A model generated the notes under the pieces. That model saw only the letters and a program-made list of their open reading frames with translations, was not told the DNA's origin and did not search any database. Positions 15,831 through 57,751 of a DNA stretch of 64,000 bases are shown one piece after another. Source of the DNA: Paenibacillus sp. Soil787 (lineage in GTDB: Bacteria > Bacillota > Bacilli > Paenibacillales > NBRC-103111); the NCBI RefSeq assembly GCF_001429545.1, contig NZ_LMSP01000011.1, positions 69,498 to 133,497 of the forward strand, written 5' to 3'. The stretch's first letter is position 1. The number at the start of each line of letters is the position of its first letter. A program made the translations under genes and the position numbers.

Positions 15831-16061
15831 ACAATGTTTTTTCATTGTATCGACAACCGATACGGACTTGAAAATATGTGCGTTAACGATGGTTTTCATC
15901 CTAATGGTGCAGGGCTCCAGAGCGAGTTTAACGATATTTTTCATCCTTAAATAGGGCTGTAAGGTAGGATAACCTGTAAATTGACTCACTTAACGATGAT
16001 TTTCATCGTTATAATCAAGTTTCAACGTCTGACTGGCTCCATAGCGATGAAAAACATCGTT
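15831..16061. repeat. Palindrome array, family 1 (ACGATG-N4/5-CATCGT)
   Basis: Five copies: 15831-15848 (ACAATG/CATTGT variant), 15886-15902, 15931-15947, 15993-16009 (perfect ACGATG/CATCGT) and 16044-16060. Centre distances are about 54, 45, 62 and 51 bp. A GGCTCC word precedes the third and fifth copies. The array fills most of the argB to small-membrane-protein gap. Copies lack T-runs long enough to be ordinary terminators. Confidence 0.8.
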
Positions 16062-16102
16062 ACCACTCAATAATCAAAGGTTTTTGAACGGAGGTATCTG
16101 TG

Positions 16103-16378: not shown

Positions 16379-16408
16379 ACCAAAAAAACTTTTAAGGAGG
16401 GAATGTAC

Positions 16409-17605: not shown

Positions 17606-17635
17606 TAAAAGTTCCGTTTAGAGAGGTTGGATGAC

Positions 17636-18595
17636 ATGAATATGGCTGTACAGGAAGAACTGGCTGCCCAGTTGAAGGGCAAGGATTTTCTTGCTTTAGT
17701 TGATTATACATCAGAAGAAATTGAATATTTGATTCACTATGCAATTGAGCTTAAACGTAAGCAGAAAGCTAGAGAGCCGCATGCTGTGCTCGCTGGTAAA
17801 ACGCTTGGAATGATTTTTGAGAAATCCTCGACGCGTACGCGAGTTTCCTTTGAAGTGGGGATGTACCAACTTGGGGGTCAGGCTCTATTCCTTAGCAAAA
17901 ATGATCTTCAGCTAGGACGCGGTGAAACCGTTTGGGATACTGCGCAAACACTGTCCCGTTACCTCGATGGCATCATGATTCGTACGTACGAACACCGCAA
18001 AGTGATTGACCTTGCACGTGGATCAACGGTGCCGGTCATTAATGGATTGACGGATTATGCCCACCCTTGTCAGGTTATGGCTGATTATCAGACGGTTTTG
18101 GAGAAAAAAGGCCGTTTGAAAGGTCTCAAAGTCGCCTACATCGGAGATGGCAACAATATGGTGCACTCCCTCATGATGGGTGCAAGCAAATTGGGAATGA
18201 ATTTCGCGATTGCCTCGCCGGAAGGCTACGATCCTGATAAGGAAGTCATTCAGATTTCTAAGGAGAATGCAGCGCAAACCGGAGGCAGTATTCTCCTTAC
18301 TCGCGATCCACGCGAAGCGATTGAAAATGCGGACGTCGTCTACACAGACGTTTGGGCAAGCATGGGCTTTGAGGCGGAGCAGCAGGAGCGGGAGATTGCT
18401 TTCAAGAACTTCCAAATCAACGAGGCGCTTGTGAAGCATGCCAAATCGGATTACTTGTTCATGCATTGCTTGCCTGCACATCGCGGGGAAGAAGTGAGCG
18501 AGGGCGTTATTGACGGCCCGAATTCCATTATTTTTGATCAAGCAGAGAATCGTCTTCATGCGCAAAAGGCCATTATGGCCGCGACAATGATATAA
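17636..18595 (+). CDS. argF: Ornithine carbamoyltransferase
   Basis: 319 residues. It joins ornithine and carbamoyl phosphate to give citrulline. Carbamoyl-phosphate binding S-S-T-R-T-R at 64-69, H-P-C-Q at 143-146, and the ornithine-side H-C-L-P-A-H-R-G near the C-terminus are all intact. The ATG at 17636 is nine bases after AGAGAGG; the in-frame TTG at 17627 is too close. No carAB genes lie between argD and argF here, unlike in B. subtilis. Confidence 0.96.
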   Translation: MNMAVQEELAAQLKGKDFLALVDYTSEEIEYLIHYAIELKRKQKAREPHAVLAGKTLGMIFEKSSTRTRVSFEVGMYQLGGQALFLSKNDLQLGRGETVWDTAQTLSRYLDGIMIRTYEHRKVIDLARGSTVPVINGLTDYAHPCQVMADYQTVLEKKGRLKGLKVAYIGDGNNMVHSLMMGASKLGMNFAIASPEGYDPDKEVIQISKENAAQTGGSILLTRDPREAIENADVVYTDVWASMGFEAEQQEREIAFKNFQINEALVKHAKSDYLFMHCLPAHRGEEVSEGVIDGPNSIIFDQAENRLHAQKAIMAATMI

Positions 18596-39395: not shown

Positions 39396-40364
39396 TTATA
39401 CCCACCACATTTCACCAAGAGGTTCCTTGATGAGTACTTGTTGGAGATTTTGCACGGCTTTGGAGAATCCTTCTTCAACGGACATCAAACCGTCTTCATG
39501 CTCGATACTCACGACATAGTCATAACCAACAAGGCGCAGAGCACTGATGATGTCAGCCCAAACTTTCATATCGTGACCGTAACCAACGGAACGGAACTGC
39601 CAAGCGCGGTCAAGCATGTTAGCATAGGATTGCATATCTGTTACACCATAACGGTTCACATTGTTCACATCAAGGGATGTGTCTTTGGCGTGGAAATGGT
39701 GGATCGCTCCCGCACGGCCAAGAATTTGAACAGCTTGAACAGGATCGATACCTTGCCACCACATGTGACTTGGGTCAAGATTTGCTCCGATTGCTTCACC
39801 TGCTGCTTCGCGCAGACGAAGGAGGGTTGCTGGCGTATGTACGGAGAAGCCACCGTGCAGTTCCAGTCCAATTTTAATATTACGATCAGAAGCGTATTTG
39901 CCTGTCTCTGTCCAGTAAGGAATAACTTTATTCCCCCACTGCCAGTCCAGAATCTCTTGGAAATCGTTCGGCCAAGGCGCTACCGGCCAGTTCGGATACT
40001 TCGCATCCTCATGGTCTCCAGGACAGCCTGAGAACGTGTTAACTACAGGTACTTCTAAGCGTTCAGCAAGATCAATCGTTTGTATGATAGCATCGTGAAA
40101 CTCTTTTGCAATGTGTTTTTGCGGGTGCAGCGGGTTACCGTGGGCGCTAAGTGCGCTAATTGTCAATCCGCGGGATTCTACCGCATGTTTAAATGCTTTT
40201 AGTTTCCCTGCGTCTGCAAGAAGTTCGCTTGGGTTGCAGTGCGCTGTACCGGGATAGCCCCCTGTACCAATTTCAACAGCATCTAAGCCTTTCGCAGCAA
40301 TATAATCCAACGCTTCCTCGAAAGGTTTTCCACCGAACAGAACCATAAAAACGCCTAACTTCAT
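39396..40364 (-). CDS. Sugar phosphate isomerase/epimerase-like TIM barrel
   Basis: 322 residues from the ATG at 40364, six bases after GGAGGTG; an ATG at 40379 lies inside that site. It belongs to the xylose-isomerase-like/AP-endonuclease-2 superfamily: V-F-M-V-L-F-G-G at the start, G-L-E-L-H-G-G-F for the metal-binding Glu, N-L-D-P-S-H-M-W-W-Q-G for Asp/His, H-F-H-A-K-D-T and S-I-E-H-E-D for the last ligands. All metal ligands look present. The natural sugar or inositol substrate is unknown; the gene stands alone. Confidence 0.85.
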   Translation of the reverse strand: MKLGVFMVLFGGKPFEEALDYIAAKGLDAVEIGTGGYPGTAHCNPSELLADAGKLKAFKHAVESRGLTISALSAHGNPLHPQKHIAKEFHDAIIQTIDLAERLEVPVVNTFSGCPGDHEDAKYPNWPVAPWPNDFQEILDWQWGNKVIPYWTETGKYASDRNIKIGLELHGGFSVHTPATLLRLREAAGEAIGANLDPSHMWWQGIDPVQAVQILGRAGAIHHFHAKDTSLDVNNVNRYGVTDMQSYANMLDRAWQFRSVGYGHDMKVWADIISALRLVGYDYVVSIEHEDGLMSVEEGFSKAVQNLQQVLIKEPLGEMWWV

Positions 40365-40412
40365 TAGGTACACCTCCATAAATGGTTAACAATCACACAA
40401 ATTATACCACTA

Positions 40413-41567
40413 TCATCCAGTAAAATGAAGCAAGCCTTTATAGATTCGAAGAACCGTCTCATAATTGGAGCTATAGATAATAACTGAGAACGTAACCAGC
40501 GCTTGTGTCACGAAACAACGAAAGTAGAAATAGGTTTTGGATACTTTCTTTTTATTAACTGTCGTGATTTTAAATATATTTTCGATAGCAAGAATGATTC
40601 CATGATAGAGCCCATAGAAGAAATAAAGCCACGTAAAGCCATGCCACAGTCCAATCAAGACCATAATCAGAACGGACAGGCTGGAAGCTACCCAGCGGGA
40701 GGGAGCGGTACGAGAGAAGAACATGAAGATATGATCACGGAAAAAATCGCCTAACGTCGCGTGCCAATTCCGCCAAAACTGCGTCATGGAAGGCGAGAAG
40801 AGTGGACGCTTGAAGTTCTCAGGCATCGTATAGCCCATCAATCGCCCAAAGCCGATTGCCATATCGGAATAACCGGAGAAATCGAAGTAAATGAGTGCAT
40901 AGAACCAGATCAATAGAAATAACGACTGATGGGTGTGCAGGTCTTGTTTCAGCACTTGATCGAAAACGCTGGTCATCCAAGTGACCACAACGATTTTCTT
41001 GAACAATCCTAGAATAATCCGTTTCACACTGTCTTCGAAGAGCGCAGCATCAACGTTGTAAGGTTTTTTGCTATCGGCCATAAAATCACGGAATTTTAAA
41101 ATCGGCCCTGATGTAAAAGTTGGGATAAACAACAGGTAATTCGCGTAATCAATAGCTGGAACTTGGCCTTCTTTGCCGAAAAAATAAGCAAAATAATAAG
41201 CATCGATCACTTTAAGAACGTTATAAATGAGGCCTAAATAGATGATGGCATCGAATAACGGATTGTGAAAAATGTCCATGACGAAAAGCCGGACTCCGAG
41301 AAACACACCGACAACATTAGCGGCAATCGCGAAAATAAACGTCGCTTTACGCCATAACGTCGTTCGGCATAAATAAACAAAGCCTGCATAATTAATGACC
41401 GTAAAAGCGGTATAGAAAATAAGCAGCTTCTGGCTGAAGAGCAGCAGAAAGCAGAGGCTGAAAATAATCATCAGAATGCGTTTGTTATTAGCCCACTTGC
41501 GGGTGAGCATCAGAACGGCAACCATGCCTATCATAGCGATAATTGCGTTCATGTGCATATAAAACAT
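40413..41567 (-). CDS. MBOAT acyltransferase, DltB-like
   Basis: 384 residues, about ten membrane helices. The MBOAT signature F-W-R-N-W-H-A-T-L-G-D-F-F-R-D and the catalytic-histidine motif G-L-W-H-G-F-T-W are present, as in DltB and AlgI. DltB accepts D-Ala from DltC and passes it outward. GAGGAG is 10 bases before the ATG. It is last in a run of DltD-like, DltX-like and this gene, with a carrier protein and an aminoacyl-carrier ligase upstream on the same strand. What it transfers, and to which polymer, is open. Confidence 0.85.
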   Translation of the reverse strand: MFYMHMNAIIAMIGMVAVLMLTRKWANNKRILMIIFSLCFLLLFSQKLLIFYTAFTVINYAGFVYLCRTTLWRKATFIFAIAANVVGVFLGVRLFVMDIFHNPLFDAIIYLGLIYNVLKVIDAYYFAYFFGKEGQVPAIDYANYLLFIPTFTSGPILKFRDFMADSKKPYNVDAALFEDSVKRIILGLFKKIVVVTWMTSVFDQVLKQDLHTHQSLFLLIWFYALIYFDFSGYSDMAIGFGRLMGYTMPENFKRPLFSPSMTQFWRNWHATLGDFFRDHIFMFFSRTAPSRWVASSLSVLIMVLIGLWHGFTWLYFFYGLYHGIILAIENIFKITTVNKKKVSKTYFYFRCFVTQALVTFSVIIYSSNYETVLRIYKGLLHFTG

Positions 41568-41635
41568 AGCTATAGAACTCCTCGCTTCGAATGCTTGATC
41601 AGTCTCATCTTAGACTTCTAGAAGATTTAGAAATA

Positions 41636-41746
41636 CTAGAATTTCTCGTAGATAAACAAGCCCTTGCCAGTAAAATAGATGAAAACCAAATACAGCATTA
41701 CGAGATAGATCAGGACTTCGATGGTTTTCCTAAGGATTTTAACCAT
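41636..41746 (-). CDS. DltX-like 36-residue membrane microprotein
   Basis: Sequence starts M-V-K-I-L-R-K-T-I-E-V-L-I-Y and ends G-K-G-L-F-I-Y-E-K-F. One membrane helix with a C-terminal F-I-Y-x-x-F motif is the hallmark of DltX, which helps D-alanylation beside DltB. GGAGG is seven bases before the ATG. It overlaps the end of the DltD-like gene by 37 bp in another frame and precedes the MBOAT gene by 68 bp. Position and motif together make it convincing despite its length; in canonical operons dltX lies before dltA. Confidence 0.72.
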   Translation of the reverse strand: MVKILRKTIEVLIYLVMLYLVFIYFTGKGLFIYEKF

Positions 41747-42621
41747 GTGTCTACCTCCTTCGTAAATAACGGCGCGCCATCTTCGCGGTTCAAGTGGACA
41801 AGGTCATTGAAATAGCGTGGATCGTATTTATGCAGTAAATTCAGCGTAGGCACATTCGCAGCTTGCAGCTGGCGGTTTGCCTCTTGCATCAAGGCGGAGA
41901 CATAAGGCGGGTCTGCATAGCCTTTGTTCCACGGCATCCAAATCACACGCAGAGGAAGTTGATGCTTATTCGCATACTGGATAACCCACTGCAGAGCATC
42001 CAAATTTGCCTGAAAATCTTTAAGTGTCATGGCACCGAAACGCTTGTCGTATTCGGTCCACTTCGTCTTTAGGAAAACATCGTCTTTGCGACCGGGGTAT
42101 AGCTCTTTATCAATCCAGCGGGGCTCGTAGCCTAGGCTGCCTTTGCGCAAATTCCGAGCAAACTCTTCACCAGAATCCCGGAAATAGTCGCGGTACGTAT
42201 AAACATATGGCTGATACCATGGTTTGAACCATTGGTAGGTTGGATCCGTTTCAAGTGAGTCTAGCATGGTGTGAACATCAATGCCAATCACAAGCTCATC
42301 CTTCACCTGATAAAGGTTATTTGATAGGATGGCTTTCAGGTCGGTTAGCTTTCCATAGGAAAGTCCCATCTCAACCAAATGGGCTTCGGATTTCTCTTCG
42401 ATATACGCACCCGTAACGGACGAATTACCGAAGAAAACCGGACCCGATTGGGACCAGCCGTGGTGGTAGAGCGTTTTGGTGAAGTCGTTTTTGTAAAAAC
42501 GGCGCGAGCTAACCATCGGGTCCCACCAGGAAATGAGCAGGTCGGAGACGACGAGTGCCAGCAGCAGGCCGAGTACGAAACTATTTTTTTTGAGAAATGC
42601 AGCTACTTTCAACGGAATCAC
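41710..42621 (-). CDS. DltD-like membrane-anchored SGNH-type protein
   Basis: 303 residues. One N-terminal helix (about 14-32), then an SGNH/AlgX-like fold: G-N-S-S-V-T-G at 65-71 holds the nucleophile serine candidate and D-L-V-H at 273-276 the Asp-His pair, with G-I-D-V-H and W-M-P-W-N-K in between. DltD proteins act on the outer face in the last steps of D-alanine transfer. The start is a GTG directly after an in-frame stop and has no clear Shine-Dalgarno, so initiation may be weak. A 734 bp gap separates it from the carrier ligase gene. Confidence 0.75.
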   Translation of the reverse strand: MIPLKVAAFLKKNSFVLGLLLALVVSDLLISWWDPMVSSRRFYKNDFTKTLYHHGWSQSGPVFFGNSSVTGAYIEEKSEAHLVEMGLSYGKLTDLKAILSNNLYQVKDELVIGIDVHTMLDSLETDPTYQWFKPWYQPYVYTYRDYFRDSGEEFARNLRKGSLGYEPRWIDKELYPGRKDDVFLKTKWTEYDKRFGAMTLKDFQANLDALQWVIQYANKHQLPLRVIWMPWNKGYADPPYVSALMQEANRQLQAANVPTLNLLHKYDPRYFNDLVHLNREDGAPLFTKEVDTWLKSLGKPSKS

Positions 42622-43355
42622 TCATTATCTTTGTATAGGATGGACGCTTCATAGCGCTTGCTCGCCATAGAGAACGCATGAAGCATTAGTTGGCCCACAG
42701 CTGACAAGGAACTGTAATTGTGCAGCTAATGTCGGCGTGTGGGCTATTGTGATGTTACTTTGATATAAATGTGCAGGTAGATGGGCGGATATGAATGCGT
42801 TCTGTGAAAAAACAGAATTGCTCCAGGTGAAGTGTCTGCAGACCCAGTGAGCTTAAAGTATCCAGTGATCACAACAAGCTCGATGAGCCTAAGCACTCTG
42901 CGCAACTGAGGGAATCACCGAACTCAGCGAGGGGTCAACAAGCCTAATGCAGCCAGATCGGGACCAATAAGCTTAACGCCTAGAGAATACCTGGCGAACC
43001 CAACTCACCCAAGAACCAGCCCAATGTGCCGAACGAGTTCAATGAGCACGTATCCGCCGAACCCAATGGTCTCAATGTACCCGACGCCACCGAATGCCGC
43101 CCAACGCCCCCCAACGCCATTTTATTGAGAAATTGTTGCACAAAATACAACTTAGACGGTTAGGATTGAACACCGCCATGCGGGATGGCGCCGATGTCGA
43201 CTATGTCCGCGATTCCGGATGACAGCGTCTCGCGGTGCTACAACGTACGCCCAGGATTAGCTCGCGTAGAGAAATGAATCACTCATCAATGATTAACAGC
43301 TATCTGCTAAAGGTCGACCAAGCAAAAGTAGTTAGGGATTGAAGAGAAAAGGCAC
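42622..43355. other. 734-bp gap: hairpin, palindrome copy and degenerate C-rich repeats
   Basis: No gene with a credible start is seen. A long hairpin at 42690-42746 (CCCACA-GCTGACA against TGTCGGC-G-TGTGGG) lies near the start of the DltD-like gene. From about 42845 to 43125 the + strand is C-rich, made of degenerate words such as GAACCCAATG, AAGCCTAATG and TTCAATGAGC. At 43133-43151 lies TTGTTGCACAAAATACAAC, a family 5 palindrome. This region may hold a promoter for the DltD-like unit, but none was recognised. Confidence 0.6.
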
Positions 43356-44555
43356 TTACAGCGCCTTCTCCTGCCAAGCATAGTACTGCTCACGGAATGT
43401 GGCTGGCCATTGCTGCTCGTCGAGACCATATTGCGCCAAGAACGCGAACGCCCAGCGTTCGATTCCGAAGCCTACACAGCCAGTAACGGCGTTGCGCTTG
43501 CCCATTTTAATATTAAAAGCATTCCCAAACGTATTGCTATGGAAATTGACAGAGGAGCAGGCGATTGATTTCTTCACATGAGGAATGCTCAAGCGCAGCT
43601 CATATTTCATCTCCTGATTGCGTTGGAAGGAAGCTTTCACTTGGAAATCGTTCGTGAAGAACGGGTCGTTGGCGATCTCCATCATGCTGTCTACGTTCCA
43701 TTCAACGGCAAGCTCTTTGAGATATTCGATCGATTTCAGGCGATTTTCTTTAACGAAGTCGGGTTTGCCGACGAAAATAATTTCGCGCATCGAGAAGTCG
43801 AGCAGACGACCGAAATCGGTGTGGTTTTTGGATTCGAAACGGTGACATTTCGCAATGGCTGTAACGACGATGCCGTCCCCTTCGAGCGTTTCATTCTCTA
43901 GGCCTTCATAGCAGTGATAACAAGTGGAAGGATTCATCATGAAGTTCGGCTTCACCATATTGTTATCAAGCGCGAGCGGCTGCTCTTGGTTCCAACCGCC
44001 AGCTTCACGGATGGATTGGGAGAAGGATTCGATGACATCCAAATCCTCACGCAAATGAGTCACGAAATGAATGTGCTCAGGGAAAGAAGTGAAGTGATTC
44101 GTTTTATTTAAAGTGTGACTATGAATAACAGCTGGATAAGACTCTTCCTGCATACCTTCGAAACGCTTGGCGATCTTCGTTACGAAAGAGTAATCAAAGA
44201 AACGCATTAAGCTGGAGAAAGGCTCACGGAAAATAAAAAGGCCGGGTTCCAACACTTTAATTGCTTTACGCTCTACAAGCTCAGCGATAATATCGCCTTC
44301 GTAGGGAGTGTCGACTTTGTTCTCGAATAAAATGTTTTCCTTGAAGCCGAAATCACCGTGGGAGAAACGTTCAATCAGACGCTGAACCCGCTCGGTAATG
44401 CCTTCGTTTCCGCCAGGAGAGTTATGCGTAATGATAATGTGACCATCCACAAGGGCAATATCCTGAATATGCTCATCGGCAAAGGCGGACGCGTATTTAA
44501 CTTGTCCATGCTGACTTTCAGCCAGGCCTTCTAAAGAAATTTTACATGTCAACAT
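43356..44555 (-). CDS. Seryl-tRNA-synthetase-like amino acid:[carrier protein] ligase
   Basis: 399 residues. The C-terminal ~200 residues are a class II synthetase core: motif 2-like S-M-R-E-I-I-F-V-G (R257, E258) and motif 3-like V-G-F-G-I-E-R-W (R367). Putative zinc ligands C212, E258 and C360 match the Cys-Glu-Cys pattern of methanogen-type SerRS and of the aa:CP ligases described from rhizobia, which lack a tRNA-binding domain and load Gly or Ala on a carrier. The ~100 N-terminal residues are an extra domain. GAGG is 10 bases before the ATG at 44555, seven bases after the carrier gene stop. Amino acid specificity is unknown. Confidence 0.78.
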   Translation of the reverse strand: MLTCKISLEGLAESQHGQVKYASAFADEHIQDIALVDGHIIITHNSPGGNEGITERVQRLIERFSHGDFGFKENILFENKVDTPYEGDIIAELVERKAIKVLEPGLFIFREPFSSLMRFFDYSFVTKIAKRFEGMQEESYPAVIHSHTLNKTNHFTSFPEHIHFVTHLREDLDVIESFSQSIREAGGWNQEQPLALDNNMVKPNFMMNPSTCYHCYEGLENETLEGDGIVVTAIAKCHRFESKNHTDFGRLLDFSMREIIFVGKPDFVKENRLKSIEYLKELAVEWNVDSMMEIANDPFFTNDFQVKASFQRNQEMKYELRLSIPHVKKSIACSSVNFHSNTFGNAFNIKMGKRNAVTGCVGFGIERWAFAFLAQYGLDEQQWPATFREQYYAWQEKAL

Positions 44556-44562
44556 GAATGTG

Positions 44563-44820
44563 TTACCTCGCAGTCTTTTTGGAAATAAAATCGGCAATTT
44601 CGCTTACCGTGTTCATAGAGTACAGCATTAAGTCTTGATTCGTCACTTGGATGCCGTACGTCTTCTCAATATAGGCGATAAGCGCTGTGGCGCCAATGGA
44701 GTCAATGAACCCGTAATCAAATAGATGAACATCAACGTCAAAATCATCGTCATCCTCAGCTATTTCATAACGCTCGCGAATATGCTGTTCAAGCTGCGCT
44801 ACTAATTCTTCATTAGACAT
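44563..44820 (-). CDS. Acyl/aminoacyl carrier protein
   Basis: 85 residues, acidic, four-helix carrier fold. The phosphopantetheine site is Ser41 in D-Y-G-F-I-D-S-I-G. AGGAGG precedes the ATG. It sits between the large anchored protein gene (45 bp) and the ligase gene (seven bp), so it is the natural substrate of that ligase. The D-S-I-G motif and small size recall DltC and stand-alone carriers more than fatty-acid ACP (usual D-S-L). Confidence 0.88.
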   Translation of the reverse strand: MSNEELVAQLEQHIRERYEIAEDDDDFDVDVHLFDYGFIDSIGATALIAYIEKTYGIQVTNQDLMLYSMNTVSEIADFISKKTAR

Positions 44821-44865
44821 GTTGGAAAGCCTCCTGGTTAAATTAAGTGGTAAAGGAACGTTAGT

Positions 44866-47800
44866 TCACTTTGCGGTAAAAGAAAGTGTCGTCAAATCAC
44901 CGTATCGGGTGATGGTGTACATATGAGTTTGAGCGTCATGCTCGATTTTGACCTCGGATGATTCGTCGAGACGGAGCTCCGTAGGACTGAATACCTTAAT
45001 TTGCTGCAGACCTGCTGATTTCAGGACTAATTGTTGCGTGTTTCCTTGCTGCGTCAGCTCAAAAGGGACATTAGAACGCACGATATGAAACTTTTCCTTG
45101 GCTGCTCCAATACCGATGGAAGATGGCTTAGCCAAACCTAGATAGAACCTGTTGTCTATCGTTGTGTAGGTCGTAGAGTCGGTTTGCAGCGAGTACTGGG
45201 ATAGTTTATCGCCTTTTTCAACGACGACGCCAAGTGTGGCGGCATACTCACCAGCCAAGCCGGGCACCTTGGCCTTGTTGGGTGTCAAAGTGGCATGAAA
45301 GTGTGGACTGCCGCCAGCTAATCGATCTTTCATCTTGTCCCATATATAAGAGGCCCATGATTGGCTGATATGAACCTCGCTTTTCATAGCGGTTAGGAAT
45401 GACTTCGCCATCTGCGTTTCGGTCATAAAATTATAATCATGCTTCATACGAAGTTTATTAAAATAGTCAGCGAAATTGGTTAGGTCGGCAACCAAAGATG
45501 GTACGGGAAAATGGTACTCGATGTGCTCGAAATAATCAATCGGCATGTCCAATTTTACCATCGATTCGAAAATATCCGTCGTTTCATAGTCTCCTGTCCG
45601 AAGTACGGGCGTAGGTGTATGAATCAGCATCGTATGATCCACATTCCCTTGTTTATCCTGTAATAGAAAGGGAAGCGACCAGATCTCTTCCGGACGTGGA
45701 ATAACGGGCGAATCGGGCGCTAAGAATCCGAAATTGTACCATAATCCTTGCTGCTGTTCATTCGCCAGTGTTTGCTGATGGTCTATGTTATTGATGCGCC
45801 ATGTGTGTTGGTTCGTTCCGGGGTGCAGCCAAGGGATGCCTAGTTTATCGAAAGCTTTCTTGTGAAGGGAAAGCTCGGTGCGTTCCTCTTCAGCACTTTT
45901 GAAATTATGCACAAACACGTGCGGATCGATTTGTAAATGATTATCATGCGCGTATTGGATGAACTCCTTGAGTTCCGCTTGATAAGGAAACTGCGGGTCG
46001 TCGATCGAAACGGGGGACCCGAATTCGATACCGCCGACGACCAGGTCGTCTTTGCCGTCGTGATTAAGATCTAACCAAAGCGGGACGGAGTAGTGGCCGG
46101 CAACCAAGGCGTGATCGCCGACTTGGTTCAGGGTTGTGCCCTGTAGGGGACCTGCATTCGCCCAAGCGCCATCAGCGCCTTGGAGATACACCTGCAGGTC
46201 CCCATCACTGCTGCCGACCACGATATCGAGTCGGCCGTCGCCATTGATGTCATGCACGGATGGTGCGGCGTGCGTGGCTTTGTTCGGCAGCGTGATGATG
46301 GCGCTGCCTTGGTCGAGTAGCAGGCCCGCTGCGCTGCGGCCCTTGTAGAGCCATACTTGTCCATCGGCTCCGCCTAGGACAAGGTCGAGCTTGCCGTCGC
46401 CATCGACGTCGGCGACGAACGGCGCTGCAGGCCCTCCGGGCAGCTGCAGCGGCTTCCCGCCCGCGAGCAGCGCCGCGGGCTTCGCGAACCTGCCGCCAGC
46501 AAGCTGCGGCAGAAGCCTTACCGCCCCGGACTCGTCAGAGACGACGAGGTCCGTGCGGCCATCCCCGTTCACGTCTGCGGCGTGAACAGCACTGTAAGGG
46601 CCAAGCTGGAGCGGCAAGCCGCTCTCCAGCAGCAGCTTTACCGGCGCGCCGAACGTGTCCGGCAGCGCCAAGCCCTCAGACAGCGGCTCACTCGCGTAAG
46701 CCGCCGTGTCAATGCCTTGATTCGTGTACACATACACGAATCCGTCCGAGCTGCCGACGACGAGGTCCGTGCGGCCGTCGCCGTTCATATCCGCGGCCGT
46801 CGGGTACGCACGGTAAGGCAGCTCAATCGCGCTCGACAGATCGCGATACTGCGGGAACAAAGCTTGCCGCAGAGGCTTGCCGGCAGCCATCACGTGCAGC
46901 CCGCTCGCGTAGCCCGAGCCGGGCAGCTCGCCGACGAACTTCGGCTGCGCGTTCGTTCCTGTACCCAGCTGCACCGTTACGCTCTCACGCCATTGCCCCC
47001 AATAGAAGGCGTTCCGCACGAGTGTATACGAGGGAATCTCGTTATATTCCTTCAGCTTCTCCGCCCAAGCAATGCCGTCCTTTTGCCCAATGGCCGGCAT
47101 CGCCTCAAAATGATTCTGAAAGGCCATCGCAGGCCTTCCGTAAGGGCCAAGGATTTTCCGCACACTGTAACCAAATGTTTCTTTCGATACATAAGCCAGC
47201 TGCTCACTGCGGTACTGCATGTTGGCGGCAGCAAAAGCAAAGTTAAAGTAAGGCTCAATCGGTAACGTTGTTCTATTGAAATAAGTTGTTCCCGGAACTT
47301 GTTTCATGTCATGTTGGTACTTGGCAGCCAGCTGAGAGAAGCCTAGCTTCGGATCCATGCCGCTCATCATGTCGTAACCAGTTGGGAAGTACCGGTTCGG
47401 CAGGAAGTTGCTGCTGATCAGCACGGCGCCTTTGCCGACGCGATTTTGCATCACGAGGGAAACGGGCATCTTGGATTCCAACGGGTTAAACATGTTGACA
47501 ATCGTTTGACCTGTGGAAGGATCGAAACCGTATCCGAGGTTAAAGCCAGGTAGCTCGTCCATTGTATGATGCTTAAGATAGCTTTGCGTAAATAATTGAA
47601 AGGTTTGTTGAATGCCCTGAAGATTAATTGGCACCTGCGGGTAGCTAAGAGACAGTGAATCCCCTGATAAGAAAGGCGAGCCAAATTTGTTCAGTGGTAC
47701 CTTTTTTAAATCGACAATTCTGGCAGCTCCAAGAAAATCCAGCGGGAACCGGTCAGCAAACTCATTTTCCAACAATAAATGTCCGCCCTGCTTCACGAAT

Positions 47801-48111
47801 GTGACAAGTTTCGGAACTTGCTCCGCCCACCCGGTGTCTTGTGCAAGAGCAGGATCTAGATAAATGGCATCGTACTTATGAAGCTGGCTCGTTGATAAGG
47901 AAGGCAGGTTTTGTTTGTCTGTGTGAACGCCTGCTTGCAAGGTTTGCTGAAAATTTCCATAGGCGGCCGCATCATAAAGATCCCCGCTCGTCGCATAGAG
48001 GAGCTTGGTTTCATCTACTTTTGGCAAAAATAAAAGAAGGACAATGGTAAATAGGCAGACAAGGCCTAATCCGATCAATAGTTTAAGAACACGAATTTTC
48101 GACAAAACCAA
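44866..48111 (-). CDS. Large membrane-anchored protein with central FG-GAP/VCBS repeats
   Basis: 1081 residues, TTG start five bases after GAGGGA. An N-terminal helix (about 8-30) anchors an extracytoplasmic chain. Residues ~35-290 resemble a glutamine-amidotransferase-like fold. Five calcium-type repeats (D-x-N/D-G-D-G-x-x-D-[LI]-V) lie near 439, 512, 570, 622 and 683, a partial beta-propeller inserted between the flanking parts. The C-terminal part (700-1000) might be a deacetylase- or hydrolase-like barrel related to DUF2194, which I hold only weakly. The repeat-coding part is very GC-rich. It heads the operon with the carrier and ligase, suggesting a role on the same envelope polymer. Confidence 0.65.
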   Translation of the reverse strand: MVLSKIRVLKLLIGLGLVCLFTIVLLLFLPKVDETKLLYATSGDLYDAAAYGNFQQTLQAGVHTDKQNLPSLSTSQLHKYDAIYLDPALAQDTGWAEQVPKLVTFVKQGGHLLLENEFADRFPLDFLGAARIVDLKKVPLNKFGSPFLSGDSLSLSYPQVPINLQGIQQTFQLFTQSYLKHHTMDELPGFNLGYGFDPSTGQTIVNMFNPLESKMPVSLVMQNRVGKGAVLISSNFLPNRYFPTGYDMMSGMDPKLGFSQLAAKYQHDMKQVPGTTYFNRTTLPIEPYFNFAFAAANMQYRSEQLAYVSKETFGYSVRKILGPYGRPAMAFQNHFEAMPAIGQKDGIAWAEKLKEYNEIPSYTLVRNAFYWGQWRESVTVQLGTGTNAQPKFVGELPGSGYASGLHVMAAGKPLRQALFPQYRDLSSAIELPYRAYPTAADMNGDGRTDLVVGSSDGFVYVYTNQGIDTAAYASEPLSEGLALPDTFGAPVKLLLESGLPLQLGPYSAVHAADVNGDGRTDLVVSDESGAVRLLPQLAGGRFAKPAALLAGGKPLQLPGGPAAPFVADVDGDGKLDLVLGGADGQVWLYKGRSAAGLLLDQGSAIITLPNKATHAAPSVHDINGDGRLDIVVGSSDGDLQVYLQGADGAWANAGPLQGTTLNQVGDHALVAGHYSVPLWLDLNHDGKDDLVVGGIEFGSPVSIDDPQFPYQAELKEFIQYAHDNHLQIDPHVFVHNFKSAEEERTELSLHKKAFDKLGIPWLHPGTNQHTWRINNIDHQQTLANEQQQGLWYNFGFLAPDSPVIPRPEEIWSLPFLLQDKQGNVDHTMLIHTPTPVLRTGDYETTDIFESMVKLDMPIDYFEHIEYHFPVPSLVADLTNFADYFNKLRMKHDYNFMTETQMAKSFLTAMKSEVHISQSWASYIWDKMKDRLAGGSPHFHATLTPNKAKVPGLAGEYAATLGVVVEKGDKLSQYSLQTDSTTYTTIDNRFYLGLAKPSSIGIGAAKEKFHIVRSNVPFELTQQGNTQQLVLKSAGLQQIKVFSPTELRLDESSEVKIEHDAQTHMYTITRYGDLTTLSFTAK

Positions 48112-48278
48112 AGGGATCCCTCAATTGCTAAAAAGGTCACTATCCTTGCCATTATAGCATTCATAGGAAGCTTTGTTAACTTCTAAAGGTGTTGGCTGCA
48201 TGCGGTAAGGAAAACATCTGAGCATATACAAAAAATGTAAATGACGATCGCCCAACACGATCCCCGAACGTTTCAAAG

Positions 48279-51368: not shown

Positions 51369-53384
51369 ATGAAAAGGACATATAAGTTAACCGAGATCGC
51401 TAGTAAAATCGGGAAAACGCGAGCAGCTGTGATGGAATGGTCCAATTATTTTCGCGACTTTCTTCCGACTAAAGCTGTTGGCGGATCCCTAAAGTACACA
51501 GAAGAAGCCATCGAAATTTTTGAGACCATTGCCAAGATGAGCGATACCAATAAACCGCCTAAATTTATAAAAGAACATTTACAGGAAAAGCGTCAGAGGT
51601 CAATTATCGCACTCAATGAAGTAAAGCCTTTACCGCCTACACCTACTATTGTTCCTGACTCCAATTTACCTCCTTCCGCAGACAACTCAATCCTACCTCC
51701 AGTTATGAACAACTCCAATTTGCAATTAAGTAAAGAAACAATGGAATTAAGTAACATGGTACAGCTCCTCACGCGAAAGATTGAAGCGAATAAATCGCCA
51801 AGGAATTTAAAGGACCCAATCGACGACAAGAATCGAAAGGCTGATATATCGTCTATAGCAGGTGGCGGGCTTTTGTTATCTATGATGGATCACTCAAACC
51901 CTCAGTTCGTTCAATTAAGTAATGAAGTCGCGGAACTTAGTAACATCATCCATACGCTCAAGCAACAAGTTAATGAAGTTTCGGGCGTTTCTGAAGAAGT
52001 AACGGAACTGCGAAACGTAATCCAAATTCTCACCCAACATGTAACTGGGTTGTTCGAACAGGACATTAAAAGTGAAGTTGCTGCCGCACTCCAATTACTG
52101 AATAGACAAATTGAGGTTGTTTCAACCGAAGTAACAGGGCTGCAGCATGCGATCCACATTGTTCAACAAAAGGCAGCTGAAGCTTCGGAGAGAGATCTCA
52201 AGGGTGAAATACTTACTGCCACAACGGAGTTACTGAACCAACGCTATAAAGGTATTTCGGAGGATGTAAAGAAGCAGCTTAATGAGATTCATCTCCATAC
52301 GCAAAAGGTTAATGAAAGTTTGGAACAAGAAATCCGGAGTGAAATAAATGCTGCTACAGGATCGTTAGACCAGCGCTATGACACCGTATCGGAAGAAGTA
52401 ATGGAGCTGCGAAACGTGATCCAGATTCTCACCCAAGAGGTAGCTGAGATTTTTGAAGAAGACATCCGAAGTGAGGTTGTTTCCACAATTGAAGTGTTGA
52501 AAAGACAAATTGAGGGTGTTTCTACCGAAATAACAGGGGTGCAGCATGCGATCCAAACCGTGCAGCAAAAGGTAACTGAAACATCGGAGAGAGATCTCAA
52601 AGGTGAAGTGCTTGCTGCAACAACGGAATTGCTGAATCAACGCTATGAAGGCGTTTCAGGGGATGTGAAGGACCTTCGCAATCTGATTGATCTTCACATG
52701 CAAAAGGTAAATGAAGTGGTGGAACAAGAAATCCGAAGTGAAATAAATGCTGCTGCAGTATCGCTAGACCAACGCTATGACACCGTATCGGAAGAAGTAA
52801 CGGAGCTGCGAAACGTGATCCAAATTCTCAACCAAAAGATAGCTGAGGTTTTTGAACAAGACGTCAGAAACGAGGTTGTATCCACAATTGAATTAATGAA
52901 TAGACAAATTGAGGGTGTTTCTACAGATGTAATGGGGTTGCAGCATGCGATCCAAACGGTTCAGCAAAAGGTAACTGAAACTTCGGATCGAGATTTCAAA
53001 GGTGAAGTGCTGACTGCAACAGCGGAGTTACTGAACCAACGCTATGACACCGTATCGGAAGAAGTAACGGAGCTGCGAAACGCGATCGAAATTGTTCAAG
53101 AGAAGGTAACTGAAGCTTTGGATCCAGATCCCAAAAGTGAAGTGCTTACTGCTACAGCGGAGTTACTGAACCAAAAGTATGAAGGCGTGTCGGAGGATGT
53201 AAAGGATCTGCGCAATTTGATTCATCTTCAAACACAAAAGGTAAGTGAAGTGTTGGAACAAGAAAACCGAAGTGAAATGCTTGATACAGCAGAGTTACTA
53301 AACAAACGATATGATGACATATCCCAACAATTGATATCACAGCAACGGCTACTTGAAAAGATCTCTAAAATGTTAGGTTTCTAG
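51369..53384 (+). CDS. HTH protein with long ~44-residue-repeat coiled coil
   Basis: 671 residues. The first ~70 look like a MerR/RacA-type winged helix (Y-K-L-T-E-I-A-S-K-I-G-K-T-R-A-A-V ... L-K-Y-T-E-E-A). A Pro/Asn-rich linker (about 85-120) leads to a long helical region from ~175 onward built of about ten imperfect 44-45-residue repeats, alternating two subtypes (E-V-T-E-L-R-N-V-I-Q and L-L-N-Q-R-Y-x-G-V-S). Forty-four residues equal four hendecads. RacA of B. subtilis has a similar N-terminal layout but is much shorter. A chromosome- or cytoskeleton-linked role is inference; no annotated family was recognised for the whole. Confidence 0.75.
   Translation: MKRTYKLTEIASKIGKTRAAVMEWSNYFRDFLPTKAVGGSLKYTEEAIEIFETIAKMSDTNKPPKFIKEHLQEKRQRSIIALNEVKPLPPTPTIVPDSNLPPSADNSILPPVMNNSNLQLSKETMELSNMVQLLTRKIEANKSPRNLKDPIDDKNRKADISSIAGGGLLLSMMDHSNPQFVQLSNEVAELSNIIHTLKQQVNEVSGVSEEVTELRNVIQILTQHVTGLFEQDIKSEVAAALQLLNRQIEVVSTEVTGLQHAIHIVQQKAAEASERDLKGEILTATTELLNQRYKGISEDVKKQLNEIHLHTQKVNESLEQEIRSEINAATGSLDQRYDTVSEEVMELRNVIQILTQEVAEIFEEDIRSEVVSTIEVLKRQIEGVSTEITGVQHAIQTVQQKVTETSERDLKGEVLAATTELLNQRYEGVSGDVKDLRNLIDLHMQKVNEVVEQEIRSEINAAAVSLDQRYDTVSEEVTELRNVIQILNQKIAEVFEQDVRNEVVSTIELMNRQIEGVSTDVMGLQHAIQTVQQKVTETSDRDFKGEVLTATAELLNQRYDTVSEEVTELRNAIEIVQEKVTEALDPDPKSEVLTATAELLNQKYEGVSEDVKDLRNLIHLQTQKVSEVLEQENRSEMLDTAELLNKRYDDISQQLISQQRLLEKISKMLGF
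51900..53340 (+). repeat. Tandem ~132-bp coding repeats
   Basis: DNA-level repeats that encode the 44-45-residue coiled-coil units. Long stretches are near identical, for example around the words encoding Q-R-Y-D-T-V-S-E-E-V at about 52370, 52770 and 53040, pointing to recent duplication of double units. Confidence 0.8.
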
Positions 53385-53639: not shown

Positions 53640-54719
53640 ATGCTTGAGGTCAAACAAGTCAGCAAGCTGTACGAAAATGATCGCGGCGTACACAACATCG
53701 ACTTCTCGATGCAGCGCGGCGAAATCGTCGGCTTTTTAGGACCGAACGGTGCTGGCAAAACAACGACAATGCGCATGATTACGGGTTATTTGAACCCTAC
53801 GCATGGTCAAATATGGGTGGATGGTCACTCCATGGCGGATAACCCGAAGAAAGCACGCCGCAAAATCGGCTACTTACCCGAAACGCCGCCTCTCTATCCC
53901 GAGATGACAGTGCAAGCTTATTTACGATTCATCGCAAATCTTCGCGATGTACCTGCCCGGGAGCAGAAGCTGCGTGTCGGCGAAGCAATCGACAAGCTGG
54001 GTCTTCAAGGCCGCGAGAAGCAAATCATCCGCTCCTTGTCCAAGGGCTACAAGCAGCGCTTGGGCCTCGCGCAAGCGATTCTGCACCAACCGGATCTGCT
54101 TATCCTGGACGAGCCTACGTCCGGCCTCGATCCGAAGCAGATCATCGAGATTCGCCAGCTGATTCATGAGCTGGGGGAGAACCATACAGTGCTGCTGAGC
54201 ACGCACATTCTCCCGGAAATCAACGCGATTTGCAACCGCGTTCTGATCATTAACCAAGGCCGCGTCGTGCTCGACGAGCGCCCTGAGCATCTCGGCCGTA
54301 CGATGGGCGAGACGTTCGAGGTGTCGCTCGAGGTCAAGGGACCTCGCGAGCGGATCTTGACCGAGCTGCGCAGCCTAGAGACGGTCGCAGAAGTGAAAGA
54401 AGTCGACGCGCCGAGCGACGCTGCAACTATCGCTGCGCCTGTTGCGCAGGATGTGTTCATCACCGACGATGCAGTCGCGGAAGCGGCGACTACAGAACCA
54501 GTATCAGCTGCCGCCGAAACCGTGAAGCTGCTAGTGACCTCTGCGGATCGCTCTGATATCCGCGAAGCGCTGTTCTTCCGCCTGGCTGGCGCAGGCTATC
54601 CGATTCTCGAGATGAAGCGGGAAAGCCTCAGCCTAGAGGATATCTTCCTCAAGTTGACGACGGATGAACCTGCCGAAGTCGACAGCACGCCGAAGGAGGA
54701 GGTTGACACCGATGCGTAG
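53640..54719 (+). CDS. ABC transporter ATPase, GldA-like
   Basis: 359 residues. Walker A G-P-N-G-A-G-K-T-T at 34-42, signature L-S-K-G-Y-K-Q-R, Walker B L-L-I-L-D-E-P-T. The C-terminal ~140 residues are longer than in typical ABC-2 ATPases and hold an Ala/Glu/Thr-rich insert (about 265-300). GGGGGATC lies before the ATG. It overlaps the permease gene by eight bp and heads a four-gene operon like gldA-gldF-gldG. In Bacillota such systems have no settled substrate; gliding itself is not implied. Confidence 0.88.
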   Translation: MLEVKQVSKLYENDRGVHNIDFSMQRGEIVGFLGPNGAGKTTTMRMITGYLNPTHGQIWVDGHSMADNPKKARRKIGYLPETPPLYPEMTVQAYLRFIANLRDVPAREQKLRVGEAIDKLGLQGREKQIIRSLSKGYKQRLGLAQAILHQPDLLILDEPTSGLDPKQIIEIRQLIHELGENHTVLLSTHILPEINAICNRVLIINQGRVVLDERPEHLGRTMGETFEVSLEVKGPRERILTELRSLETVAEVKEVDAPSDAATIAAPVAQDVFITDDAVAEAATTEPVSAAAETVKLLVTSADRSDIREALFFRLAGAGYPILEMKRESLSLEDIFLKLTTDEPAEVDSTPKEEVDTDA

Positions 54720-55428
54720 AGTCTGGGCCATTTGCTCGAAAGAGCTGCAAATGTATTTCTTTTCGCCTGTTGCTTACGTAGCGTTCGCATTCTATGTGCT
54801 GCTATCGAGCTTCTTCTTCTACATCAACTTCGTTAACGGCCAGCCACCGATTGTGGATGCGCGTTCCGTTGTTGGAAATACCACATTCGTGTACCTATTT
54901 ATCATCCCGCTTTTAACGATGCGTCTCATCGCAGATGAGTTCCGTCAAGGCACCGATGAGCTGCTTCTGACTTCACCTGCAGGTATTGGTGAAATCGTGT
55001 TGGGTAAATATTTATCAGCTTTTATTGTACAAGTAGGACTAGTGGGGATTAGTTTGATTTATCCGCTCATTATGTCTGCCTTCGGAACGCTCGATAAGCC
55101 TGTCATGTGGCTGTCTTATCTAAGTATGTTCCTATTAGGCTGCGCGATGATGGCCATTGGCTTGTTCGCGTCCAGTTTGTCCAACAATCAGATGGTAGCC
55201 GGTATTTCAGGCTTTGTTATCTTGCTTTTGCTGTGGCTGCTTGATTGGGTAAGCGGCAGCATGACAGGGAAGCTGAAGGATTACGTCGCTCAATTCTCAT
55301 TGACGAGCCATCTGACGAACTTGCAAAAGGGCGTCCTGCACGGCGGAGACATCCTCTTTTATATCACATTAACAGCTGTGTTCCTGGTTCTTTGCATACA
55401 AGTCCTTGAAAGAAAGCGTTGGAGGTGA
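54712..55428 (+). CDS. ABC-2 type permease, GldF-like
   Basis: 238 residues from the ATG at 54712, after GGAGGAGG; the frame upstream lies inside the ATPase gene. Six membrane helices, with the conserved D-E-F-R-Q-G-T-D-E-L-L-L-T-S-P loop of ABC-2 permeases. Tightly coupled to the ATPase gene and followed after five bp by the GldG-like gene. Confidence 0.9.
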   Translation: MRRVWAICSKELQMYFFSPVAYVAFAFYVLLSSFFFYINFVNGQPPIVDARSVVGNTTFVYLFIIPLLTMRLIADEFRQGTDELLLTSPAGIGEIVLGKYLSAFIVQVGLVGISLIYPLIMSAFGTLDKPVMWLSYLSMFLLGCAMMAIGLFASSLSNNQMVAGISGFVILLLLWLLDWVSGSMTGKLKDYVAQFSLTSHLTNLQKGVLHGGDILFYITLTAVFLVLCIQVLERKRWR

Positions 55429-55433
55429 GCGGG

Positions 55434-56822
55434 ATGAATAAGTGGATACGGGGAACTAATGCGACTGTTTTATCAATCGCCGTTATCGGCATTTTCATTA
55501 TACTGACGATCTTCCTTCATTCGCTGAAAGGCTTTCAGGTTGATTTGACGAAAAATAAGAGCTTTACGCTCTCCGAGCAAACAGTGGCCACACTCAAAAA
55601 TTTAAATCAAGATATTCACATCGTTGCCTTTACGAATAGTGGGGATAACAACGGTTTTGTGACGCGGCAAGTCACTGATATGGTGACCGAATATAAGAAG
55701 CAAAGCGGTAAGATTACGTATGATGAATACGATATGCTGAAACAGCCGTCGATGGCCAAGCAGTATGGTGTCGATCAGGGCGGAACAATTATTTTTGAAA
55801 TGGGTTCTAAAAAGCAGAATATCAATTTCTATGAATTGTTTGTGGGCCAGCAAGATGGTTCTTACACGTTCTCAGGGGAAGAGAAGTTTACCCAGGCCAT
55901 TAAGAGCCTCACGTCCACAGAGAAGCACACGGTTTATCTGCTTTCCGGTCATCAGGAATATCCACTGAATGCCATGACGATTCTGAAAAGCAGTCTGGAA
56001 GCCGCTAATTATGTCGTGAAGGACCTTAATCTGTTCGTTGAGGGTAAAATACCGGACGATGCGCAGATGCTGATGCTGCTTGGTCCGCAAAATGACCTGA
56101 ATGATAAAGAGGCGGCGCTGATTGAAGCTTATTTGAAGGATAAAGGCAAGATTTATATGGCATTAGGCTTCAATAAAGATATGGCGGCTAAGTGGAAAAA
56201 CATCGATGCGATCATGAAAACATACGGCATTCAGGATCAACATGCGATTGCGATTGAACCGAAACAAACGTCGCTCTATGATCCGCTGACGATTATTCCA
56301 GAGTATGGCCCGCATGACATTACCAACAAGCTCTCCAGCAATAATTTGATTACGATGTTGTCGCTGGCTGTAAGTTTGAATGCGGATGGCAGTGCGCCAG
56401 ACTACACCCAGTCTCTGCTTTTGAAAACAACAGATAAAGCTTACGGGGAAACCGATATCAATCTTCTTGCACAATCCAAAACCAAGCAGGATGCGGCAGA
56501 TGTCAAAGGTCCGCTGAATCTGGGTTACGCGATTGCGGATAAGGATAACAAGCCTAAAGCTGTCATTCTTGGGGGATCTACGTTTGTACTAGATGAAGAT
56601 ATTCAGAATCAAGGCAACAAGGATTTTGCTCTGAACAGTATCGGCTGGCTGCAGGAACAGAAGGATCAGATCACGATCCGTCCTCGCCAAGGGGATGCGT
56701 TCCAACAAGCGATGATTACGCCTGGCCAAGCGAATACTATTTTCCTCGTAACGATCGTGTTCTTACCGCTCTTGTTCTTAGTGATTGGCGGCTTGATCTG
56801 GTGGAGGAGGAGACGAGGATGA
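55434..56822 (+). CDS. GldG-like auxiliary transport protein
   Basis: 462 residues. An N-terminal helix (about 10-32), an extracytoplasmic ABC-transporter-auxiliary domain (L-S-G-H-Q-E-Y-P-L-N, L-M-L-L-G-P-Q-N-D-L), and a C-terminal helix followed by R-R-R. GGAGGTGAGC precedes the ATG at 55434. Its TGA stop overlaps the start of the next gene (ATGA). Confidence 0.87.
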   Translation: MNKWIRGTNATVLSIAVIGIFIILTIFLHSLKGFQVDLTKNKSFTLSEQTVATLKNLNQDIHIVAFTNSGDNNGFVTRQVTDMVTEYKKQSGKITYDEYDMLKQPSMAKQYGVDQGGTIIFEMGSKKQNINFYELFVGQQDGSYTFSGEEKFTQAIKSLTSTEKHTVYLLSGHQEYPLNAMTILKSSLEAANYVVKDLNLFVEGKIPDDAQMLMLLGPQNDLNDKEAALIEAYLKDKGKIYMALGFNKDMAAKWKNIDAIMKTYGIQDQHAIAIEPKQTSLYDPLTIIPEYGPHDITNKLSSNNLITMLSLAVSLNADGSAPDYTQSLLLKTTDKAYGETDINLLAQSKTKQDAADVKGPLNLGYAIADKDNKPKAVILGGSTFVLDEDIQNQGNKDFALNSIGWLQEQKDQITIRPRQGDAFQQAMITPGQANTIFLVTIVFLPLLFLVIGGLIWWRRRRG

Positions 56823-57751
56823 AACGGTTTATTCCAACGATTCTGTTAGTCGTTATTTGTATCGGCGGTTTTTGGTACGCTTCGAGCAAAGACTTCTTTC
56901 AAGAGAAAAAAGATGAACCGAAATCGCTCATCACACTCAAGCAAGAAGACGTGCAGTCCATTCATGTGAAAAAAGAGGAACAGCAGATCGAGCTAGCTCG
57001 GAATGGCAGCGGTTGGGAGATGAAAAACCCGGCAGCAGCGCCAATCAATACGAATCAAGTGGGTTCGTGGTTGGATGCCCTCGGTTTGGTGTCATCAACG
57101 AAACTAGTTGAAGATCAGGTAAGTAATCTATCCAACTATGGGTTAGATAAGCCGCTTGGAACTTATGAAGTTACGTTAAAAGACGGCTCCAAGAAAGGAC
57201 TGCTGGTGGGTACGGCTCTTCCTATTGAAGGCTTCTCCTATGTTCAGGTCGAGGGATCTCCTGCTGTGTATCAGGTGAGCGATCAGTCGCTCTCTGCCCT
57301 CGGCAAAAACCCGGTAGATTTTACTGATGCTAGCCCAGTCCAATTTGAAAGCGACAAGGTGCAAAACGTAAAACTGACATGGAAAGGTCAGACCTATATG
57401 CTGGCCAAAACAGATAAAGACAAGGTAGCTGCTGAGGCGAACTGGAAGCTTGGCGATAAAGAGCTGAAAGGCGCGGAGGCGACTCCGCTGCTGAATGAGC
57501 TGAACTTCCTGCATAGCGTTGATCTTCCACAGCCAGCGGCTCAGAAGCCAACTGCGGGCGGTGAGCTCAAAATAGAGCTTGGATCGTCTGTTGATGGCAA
57601 AGAGGTCACCGAGATCTATGAAGGTAAGCTAAGTCAAGATCAGGTCTGGTTGACGAAGCAAGGCGGACAGTGGGCGTACCCGCTTGCAGCCGCAGATATA
57701 CAGAAATTGGCGGATGTCTATGCCGGTAAACCGGCTCAGCCCGCATCTTAA
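56819..57751 (+). CDS. DUF4340 membrane-anchored protein
   Basis: 310 residues. One N-terminal helix (F-I-P-T-I-L-L-V-V-I-C-I-G-G-F-W-Y), then beta-rich extracytoplasmic DUF4340 domains. Start and the preceding stop share ATGA, so translation is coupled. DUF4340 proteins usually accompany GldG-like transporters; the role is unknown. Confidence 0.87.
   Translation: MKRFIPTILLVVICIGGFWYASSKDFFQEKKDEPKSLITLKQEDVQSIHVKKEEQQIELARNGSGWEMKNPAAAPINTNQVGSWLDALGLVSSTKLVEDQVSNLSNYGLDKPLGTYEVTLKDGSKKGLLVGTALPIEGFSYVQVEGSPAVYQVSDQSLSALGKNPVDFTDASPVQFESDKVQNVKLTWKGQTYMLAKTDKDKVAAEANWKLGDKELKGAEATPLLNELNFLHSVDLPQPAAQKPTAGGELKIELGSSVDGKEVTEIYEGKLSQDQVWLTKQGGQWAYPLAAADIQKLADVYAGKPAQPAS

Follow-up and report, generated by a model that had tools for sequence, protein, structure and literature searches.

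Genes and features of the locus

The window analysed here is a stretch of 64,000 nucleotides (nt) from Paenibacillus sp. Soil787 (contig NZ_LMSP01000011.1, positions 69,498 to 133,497 of the forward strand), and the system in question is a set of six genes on its minus strand, running from 48111 to 40413. The set comprises five larger open reading frames (ORFs) and a microprotein frame read directly from the DNA. The encoded proteins are a membrane-anchored protein, a carrier protein, an amino acid:carrier protein ligase (aa:CP ligase) related to seryl-tRNA synthetase (SerRS), and three proteins resembling DltD, DltX, and DltB of the Dlt pathway, the last being a membrane-bound O-acyltransferase (MBOAT). 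In the order of transcription, the genes are as follows.

44866 to 48111, minus strand: membrane-anchored extracytoplasmic protein of 1081 residues with an N-terminal helix, an alpha/beta domain, and an FG-GAP propeller insert (Pfam FG-GAP, AlphaFold)
44563 to 44820, minus strand: stand-alone carrier protein of 85 residues with phosphopantetheine site Ser41 (PF00550, E 1.8e-12)
43356 to 44555, minus strand: class II aa:CP ligase of 399 residues with a SerRS-2-like catalytic core and zinc ligands C212, E258, and C360 (NF005479, 3mey)
41710 to 42621, minus strand: DltD-like SGNH transferase of 303 residues with an N-terminal helix and the candidate triad S67/D273/H276 (Foldseek, orthologue profile scans)
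41636 to 41746, minus strand: DltX-like membrane microprotein of 36 residues ending in FIYEKF (read directly from the DNA)
40413 to 41567, minus strand: DltB-like MBOAT of 384 residues with His269 (WxxWH) and His309 (LWHG) (PF03062, TIGR04091, 6bug)

The original prediction, made from the sequence alone, had placed these genes on a single strand, and their coordinates, strand, and order were all confirmed; the identities that it proposed were likewise borne out, each protein being assigned by profile, sequence, or fold. Since the set is conserved among relatives, it does not represent a chance arrangement. Counts given below for named loci refer to the best 80 of 94 loci from a search of named genomes, nearly all titled Paenibacillus (P. 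alginolyticus, P. chondroitinus, P. tyrfis, P. ehimensis, P. validus, P. koleovorans, and others). The sample of the window's GTDB family comprised 104 genomes for the ligase and 103 for the profile counts of canonical DltB and DltA. Two of the loci (L028 and L038) come from one genome and many of those used for gap and neighbourhood counts come from a single genus, so these counts are not independent.

A SerRS-like ligase and its adjacent carrier

The ligase matched the family model for amino acid--[acyl-carrier-protein] ligases (NF005479) with E 1.2e-45 and 155.9 bits, under the curated cut-off of 357, the solved Bradyrhizobium enzyme Bll0957 (3mey) with E 9.6e-28, and type-2 SerRS with E 5.1e-23. 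By its sequence, it belongs to the SerRS-like aa:CP ligase family, the assignment on which the original prediction depended. The Cys-Glu-Cys zinc pattern falls at C212, E258, and C360, as had been proposed, when residues are numbered from an ATG start at 44555 (the ORF tool extends the frame to a TTG at 44597), and all three residues are invariant across 20 aligned orthologues, as are the motif 2 and motif 3 arginines, R239 and R367 (alignments of 20 and 21 rows). Adjoining the motif 2 arginine is His238, present in 21/21 envelope-type ligase rows and 0/40 others, a candidate specificity marker of the envelope-type ligases. N-terminal to the segment aligning with SerRS 3w3s, the ligase has about 84 residues, compared with 190 in 3w3s itself, a check for the tRNA-binding domain by length only. 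In a tree of 58 rows, the envelope-type ligases form one side of a branch with support of 100/99; a length filter of 300–520 residues had removed 3 of 61 extracted rows, a few rows were spurious overlapping ORFs (e.g., L086_7397_417), and long-branch warnings were raised.

The serine of the carrier lies at residue 41, as first read, and its DSx[G/A] site is found in all 80 named loci and in L172, a locus from another family described below. The carrier gene adjoins the ligase gene in every one of the 80 named loci, and we infer that the ligase charges this adjacent carrier.

The DltB-, DltX-, and DltD-like proteins

The MBOAT matched PF03062 above the cut-off (E 9.6e-20), solved DltB 6bug with E 6.2e-29, and the DltB model TIGR04091 with 177 bits, under the equivalog cut-off of 375. 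Both histidine motifs, WxxWH and LWHG, occur in 76/76 MBOAT orthologues longer than 370 residues, and the MBOATs of this type of locus form one clade (100/99) relative to canonical DltB, AlgI-like, and f10-type MBOATs (27 rows, with long-branch warnings).

The 3' end of the dltD-like gene and the microprotein gene share 37 nt; a separate ribosome site for the microprotein, AAGGAGGT, lies 6 nt 5' of its ATG, and its C-terminus reads FIYExF in 80/80 named loci. The available portion of an article describes FXYXXF as an acyl-shuttle motif whose tyrosine is loaded by DltB and passes the group to DltD, and states that other MBOAT/SGNH pathways have neither such a microprotein nor a carrier (PMC12148441). 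The presence of both at this locus thus indicates a Dlt-type, carrier-fed relay.

The Pfam scan of the window's DltD-like protein gave no match at E ≤ 1, and we considered whether the resemblance to DltD was imagined. This was rejected on the basis of orthologue scans and a fold search: PF04914 (DltD) gave weak matches in 8 of 43 aligned orthologues (best E 9.2e-5), and with the predicted model (predicted local distance difference test score, pLDDT, 88) the first-ranked Foldseek hit was DltD 6o93 (E 3.6e-4). A VIA comparison of the model with DltD 3bma_D gave Z 12.3 and a root-mean-square deviation (rmsd) of 4.1 over 213 aligned residues, tying with other SGNH enzymes. S67 and H276 of the candidate triad are present in 43/43 orthologues and D273 in 42/43.

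The anchored PelA/Agd3-like protein

The AlphaFold model of the anchored protein (pLDDT 84) matched the Pel modification enzyme PelA (9cgy) with Z 22.2 and rmsd 6.6 over 529 aligned residues, and the deacetylase Agd3 (6nwz) with Z 13.7 and rmsd 7.7 over 488. As modelled, its overall fold is that of a PelA/Agd3-type polysaccharide deacetylase (CE18/CE21-like, CE denoting carbohydrate esterase) with the propeller inserted. The HxxxH at residues 731–735 is conserved and the place where the Asp-Asp (DD) motif would be expected, located by eye from published motif descriptions, reads QNHFE. Because HxxxH is conserved but Asp-Asp is not evident, the protein is taken, on the predicted structure, as a polymer-binding or variant deacetylase.

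Distribution and linkage of the six genes

The ligase was found in 96 of the 104 genomes of the window's family, in a few of them as two pieces; in 92 of these 96, an MBOAT and the ligase share a contig and lie within 10 kb of each other. Of the remaining four, G002 carries the ligase on a 5.5-kb contig, G007 carries it near a contig end, G023 has an MBOAT by tblastn, and G026 (78% complete, 490 contigs) has the ligase and no MBOAT found. The original prediction had staked itself on ligase, carrier, MBOAT, and DltD-like genes occurring together elsewhere, and they do: among the named loci, the genes for the anchored protein, carrier, ligase, DltD-like protein, and microprotein are present in 80/80 (full-length as extracted in 74, 80, 75, 77, and 79, respectively) and the MBOAT gene in 77/80. 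In the three loci without it, the contig ends past the microprotein gene at 10 bp (L169), 620 bp (L154), and 4.1 kb (L155).

Beyond the family, two genomes of family f7 (L072, L073) carry the set in the same order with ligase identities of 58–67%, and genome G404 (family f46, locus L172) has all six genes, but with the anchored-protein gene at the opposite end; identity is 60% for the L172 ligase and 34% for its anchored protein. In a survey of the class, 13 of 398 genomes gave any ligase match and the full set was found only in the window's genome and G404, ten of the other 11 having been examined (G122 left out); in the phylum survey, 2/398 genomes gave a ligase match. The class and phylum samples overlap, and their first-look filters may miss distant members. 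At 38 loci of weaker ligase homologues, a subset of such matches, no MBOAT match was obtained at E ≤ 0.1, and the same query recovered the MBOAT in 10/10 loci holding other kinds (L181–L188, L190, L191). One of the weaker-ligase loci, L045, gave a DltD-like stretch of 21% identity (E ~0.05); the motif pattern had a few chance matches, none adjoining an MBOAT.

We rejected the idea of a mobile or singular locus, since a neighbouring U32 peptidase gene is present in 67 of 80 named loci and, among 28 longer loci from relatives, in 19. This neighbour was not seen in L172. Searches of plasmids returned only matches of less than 60% identity. A downstream TIM-barrel gene (39396–40379) was likewise rejected as a member of the system, as its distance to the MBOAT gene varies from 39 bp to 2.8 kb and none was seen in the 18-kb L172.

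Relation to canonical Dlt systems

Canonical DltB above the cut-off was found in 4/103 family genomes and DltA (TIGR01734) in 3/103, the fourth falling just under. In three of the four loci with canonical DltB (L185–L187), the order and sizes of the genes fit dltXABCD. In the window's genome (G000), the single DltB-like match is the MBOAT of the locus; the locus holds no DltA, and the genome has none above the TIGR01734 cut-off, the matches listed lying in frames of more than 2,500 codons. At C47 of this genome (~151–191 kb), adenylation-domain frames of great length, the longest with 4247 codons, probably represent a non-ribosomal peptide synthetase cluster. In the eight family genomes without the ligase, DltB-like matches are absent from two and only long (466–483 codons) in four; in G021, three of four DltB-like matches, among those listed, have 477–479 codons, and G001 has a single match.

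Across the order, the DltB cut-off was passed by the same 4 of 296 genomes and by 0/192 outside the window's family, and the envelope-type ligase occurs in only two of these 192. On these profile counts, the ligase locus occurs where dlt is missing, but dlt absence is commoner than the locus. The proposal that the ligase stands in place of DltA is thus a functional reading, the locus having the ligase and no DltA, rather than a demonstrated replacement event, since the lack of canonical DltB in other families of the order is mostly without the locus.

Proposed pathway

We consider it likely that the six genes form one operon, and that it encodes a Dlt-like pathway for aminoacylation at the cell surface whose first enzyme, the ligase, stands in the position of DltA without being its homologue. 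The SerRS-like ligase, its activity judged from its family, would make an aminoacyl-adenylate and load the amino acid onto the phosphopantetheine of the adjacent carrier. By homology with DltB and DltX, the MBOAT would then unload the carrier at the inner face of the membrane and hand the aminoacyl group to Tyr33 of FIYEKF, from which the DltD-like Ser67 enzyme would transfer it to an extracytoplasmic polymer, at a hydroxyl group. That polymer may also be bound or deacetylated by the anchored propeller protein with its PelA/Agd3-like fold.

Given the SerRS-like core of the ligase and reports that its family loads small amino acids, with Gly, Ala, and Ser listed in the accessible part of a 2022 review (PMC9437257), the group carried would most probably be glycine or a small L-amino acid and not D-alanine. 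The acceptor may be lipoteichoic acid (LTA)-like, or an N-acetylhexosamine-containing wall or exopolysaccharide. A teichoic acid is uncertain, since no TagF-type gene was found and the three LtaS-like multi-transmembrane sulfatase-domain proteins of the window's genome have weak, distant LtaS scores, and the modelled PelA/Agd3-like partner points to an aminosugar polymer.

Several observations weigh against this pathway. Both the ligase and the MBOAT fall below their curated equivalog cut-offs, the TM-scores of the DltD-like model to DltD are low (0.39–0.49 by query length), and a profile search of PDB sequences with the DltD-like protein gave nothing significant. The anchored protein lacks an evident CE Asp-Asp motif, and L155 shows no MBOAT in the 4.1 kb from its microprotein gene to the contig end, even at E 10. 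All four family genomes with canonical DltB also hold the ligase-based locus, which means that the two systems are not mutually exclusive, and order genomes outside the family lack canonical DltB mostly without having the locus, so the lack of dlt is not tied to it. Adenylation domains matching the DltA model below the cut-off occur in 103/103 genomes (control positive in 12/14), making another charging enzyme possible. Against a teichoic acid acceptor in particular stand the TagF and LtaS results given above.

Alternative explanations

The original prediction had cautioned that the gap between the ligase and dltD-like genes might separate two units. The features bearing on this are as follows.

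48151 to 48179, minus strand: sigma-70-type promoter-like site TTAACA-17-TATAAT with an extended -10, upstream of the first gene (consensus scan, 11/12)
42622 to 43355, minus strand: 734-bp spacer from the ligase to the dltD-like gene, without a convincing ORF (longest open stretch 72 codons)
42612 to 42583, minus strand: weak promoter-like site (consensus scan, 9/12) just within the dltD-like gene

The size of the gap was confirmed and the gap is real. Independent transcription of an anchored protein-carrier-ligase unit and a dltD-dltX-dltB-like unit, split at this point, would accord with the weak promoter-like site just inside the dltD-like gene and with the gaps of 155–635 bp in 15 of 56 usable loci of relatives (59 minus L020, L029, and L052, which had mis-picked start codons). 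The gap depends on lineage, however, ranging from overlap up to 734 bp, and is shorter than 140 bp in the other 41 loci, 12 of which have only 3–15 bp. A consensus scan of the region placed no terminator-like site within the spacer, and the best of its 15 promoter-like sites (shuffles give 11.2, standard deviation 3.3) is that at 48179–48151, ahead of the first gene. These sites are consensus matches rather than proof of promoters, and neither promoter-like nor terminator-like sites are clearly commoner in the region than in shuffles. As gaps are short in most relatives and the spacer has no terminator-like site, the two halves probably constitute one operon, and two separate units appear very improbable.

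The halves could also make different products: the ligase and carrier might serve a glycoconjugate or a small secreted peptide, among other possibilities, and the MBOAT/SGNH/microprotein trio might draw on acetyl-CoA to O-acetylate a polysaccharide. Other aa:CP ligases of the order do occur without an MBOAT, and family f10 has sets of MBOAT, SGNH-like protein, and FIYMNF microprotein with no carrier seen. We regard this as improbable, given that the halves remain together in 92/96 genomes, were rearranged as a set in L172, and lie 3–15 bp apart in the 12 loci noted above, and that family genomes without the ligase are mostly also without a short MBOAT. Somewhat less improbable, though still unlikely, is ordinary D-alanylation, with the ligase re-tuned to D-alanine and the locus acting on LTA as DltXABCD does. 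The downstream parts are all Dlt-like, the family has almost no canonical dlt, and the three LtaS-like proteins, weak as their scores are, would suit such a role; the SerRS-like core, the family substrates listed in the review section cited above (PMC9437257), and the retention of canonical DltB beside the locus in four genomes argue against it.

At L181, L182, L183, L184, and L191, all from the neighbouring family f10, a short MBOAT (~400 residues) at ~5–7 kb adjoins a 390-residue protein in which SGNH-like motifs (GxSTVxG, DxSH) can be picked out by eye; the two such proteins scanned gave no Pfam match. A microprotein-like frame, 64–78 codons long, ends in EFIYMNF, and no carrier or ligase was seen at these loci. 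They may represent a DltX-like microprotein in an acyl-CoA-fed system, though such systems are said to be without one.

Comparison with known systems

The individual parts are of known kinds, and their combination did not appear among the matches listed in our searches of open-licence literature; the nearest functional precedents are Dlt and AlmEFG. With the Dlt pathway (DltX-DltA-DltB-DltC-DltD), which D-alanylates teichoic acids, the locus shares the carrier, a DltB-like MBOAT with both histidine motifs, an FxYxxF microprotein, and a DltD-fold SGNH protein, and the chemical steps can be laid out in the same sequence for both. The locus differs in having, instead of the ANL adenylation enzyme DltA, an unrelated class II synthetase-like ligase, in the added PelA/Agd3-like anchored protein, in an MBOAT far under the canonical cut-off, and in a DltD-like protein ~90 residues shorter than the matched solved DltD chains. 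AlmE, like DltA, is an ANL-type enzyme. In AlmEFG of Vibrio cholerae, carrier-borne glycine is brought to lipid A, according to an excerpt of one article (PMC12930378); the amino acid is likewise delivered by a carrier protein to an envelope polymer, whereas the acceptor and acyltransferase differ from those of the locus. PatAB and other MBOAT-SGNH O-acetyltransferases share the MBOAT/SGNH pair and the acyl-Tyr shuttle motif, but such systems, as described in the portion of PMC12148441 available, use acetyl-CoA, have no carrier, and bear the motif on the MBOAT itself.

The Bradyrhizobium enzyme Bll0957 has the same catalytic core and Cys-Glu-Cys zinc site, in contrast to which the locus ligase aligns with 3mey only from about residue 130, forms its own clade, carries His238, and has partners in an envelope acylation operon. 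For the Bradyrhizobium aa:CP ligases, Mocibob et al. reportedly described an adjacent carrier gene in 2010 and 2013. The roles of aa:CP ligases had been called unclear in the original prediction, and the 2022 review agrees in the section seen, referring to their biological role as unknown despite structures and in vitro activity (PMC9437257). Among the matches listed in a search of open-licence literature, none linked an aa:CP ligase with an MBOAT, Dlt, or the envelope.

The locus ties one clade of aa:CP ligases to a membrane acyl-relay of known chemistry, which makes their purpose directly testable. If the proposed pathway is true, an unrelated charging enzyme can drive a surface-charge pathway of Gram-positive bacteria, and a new cell-envelope ester is predicted in bacteria mostly without canonical Dlt. 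The wider proposition is that a tRNA-synthetase-derived ligase replaces the role of DltA across nearly the whole family and in members of two others, delivering glycine or an L-amino acid instead of D-alanine, that a first biological role would thereby be known for a bacterial aa:CP ligase, and that the DltB-X-D relay is a module into which different charging enzymes can feed; we lean only slightly towards this proposition as a whole.

Other features of the window

The spacer at 42622–43355 holds short G-rich repeats, seen by eye (GGCGTTGGG-like). Elsewhere in the window, arginine biosynthesis genes at 12628–18595 encode a semialdehyde dehydrogenase, ArgJ, a class III aminotransferase, and a carbamoyltransferase. 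An ABC transporter with ABC-2 permease, ABC_transp_aux, and DUF4340 proteins, which we take to be a Gld-like set, lies at 53640–57751. A gene at 51369–53384 encodes a 671-residue protein with an N-terminus that is MerR-like by eye and long, repeated coiled-coil-like segments, its Pfam matches being weak and chance-like.

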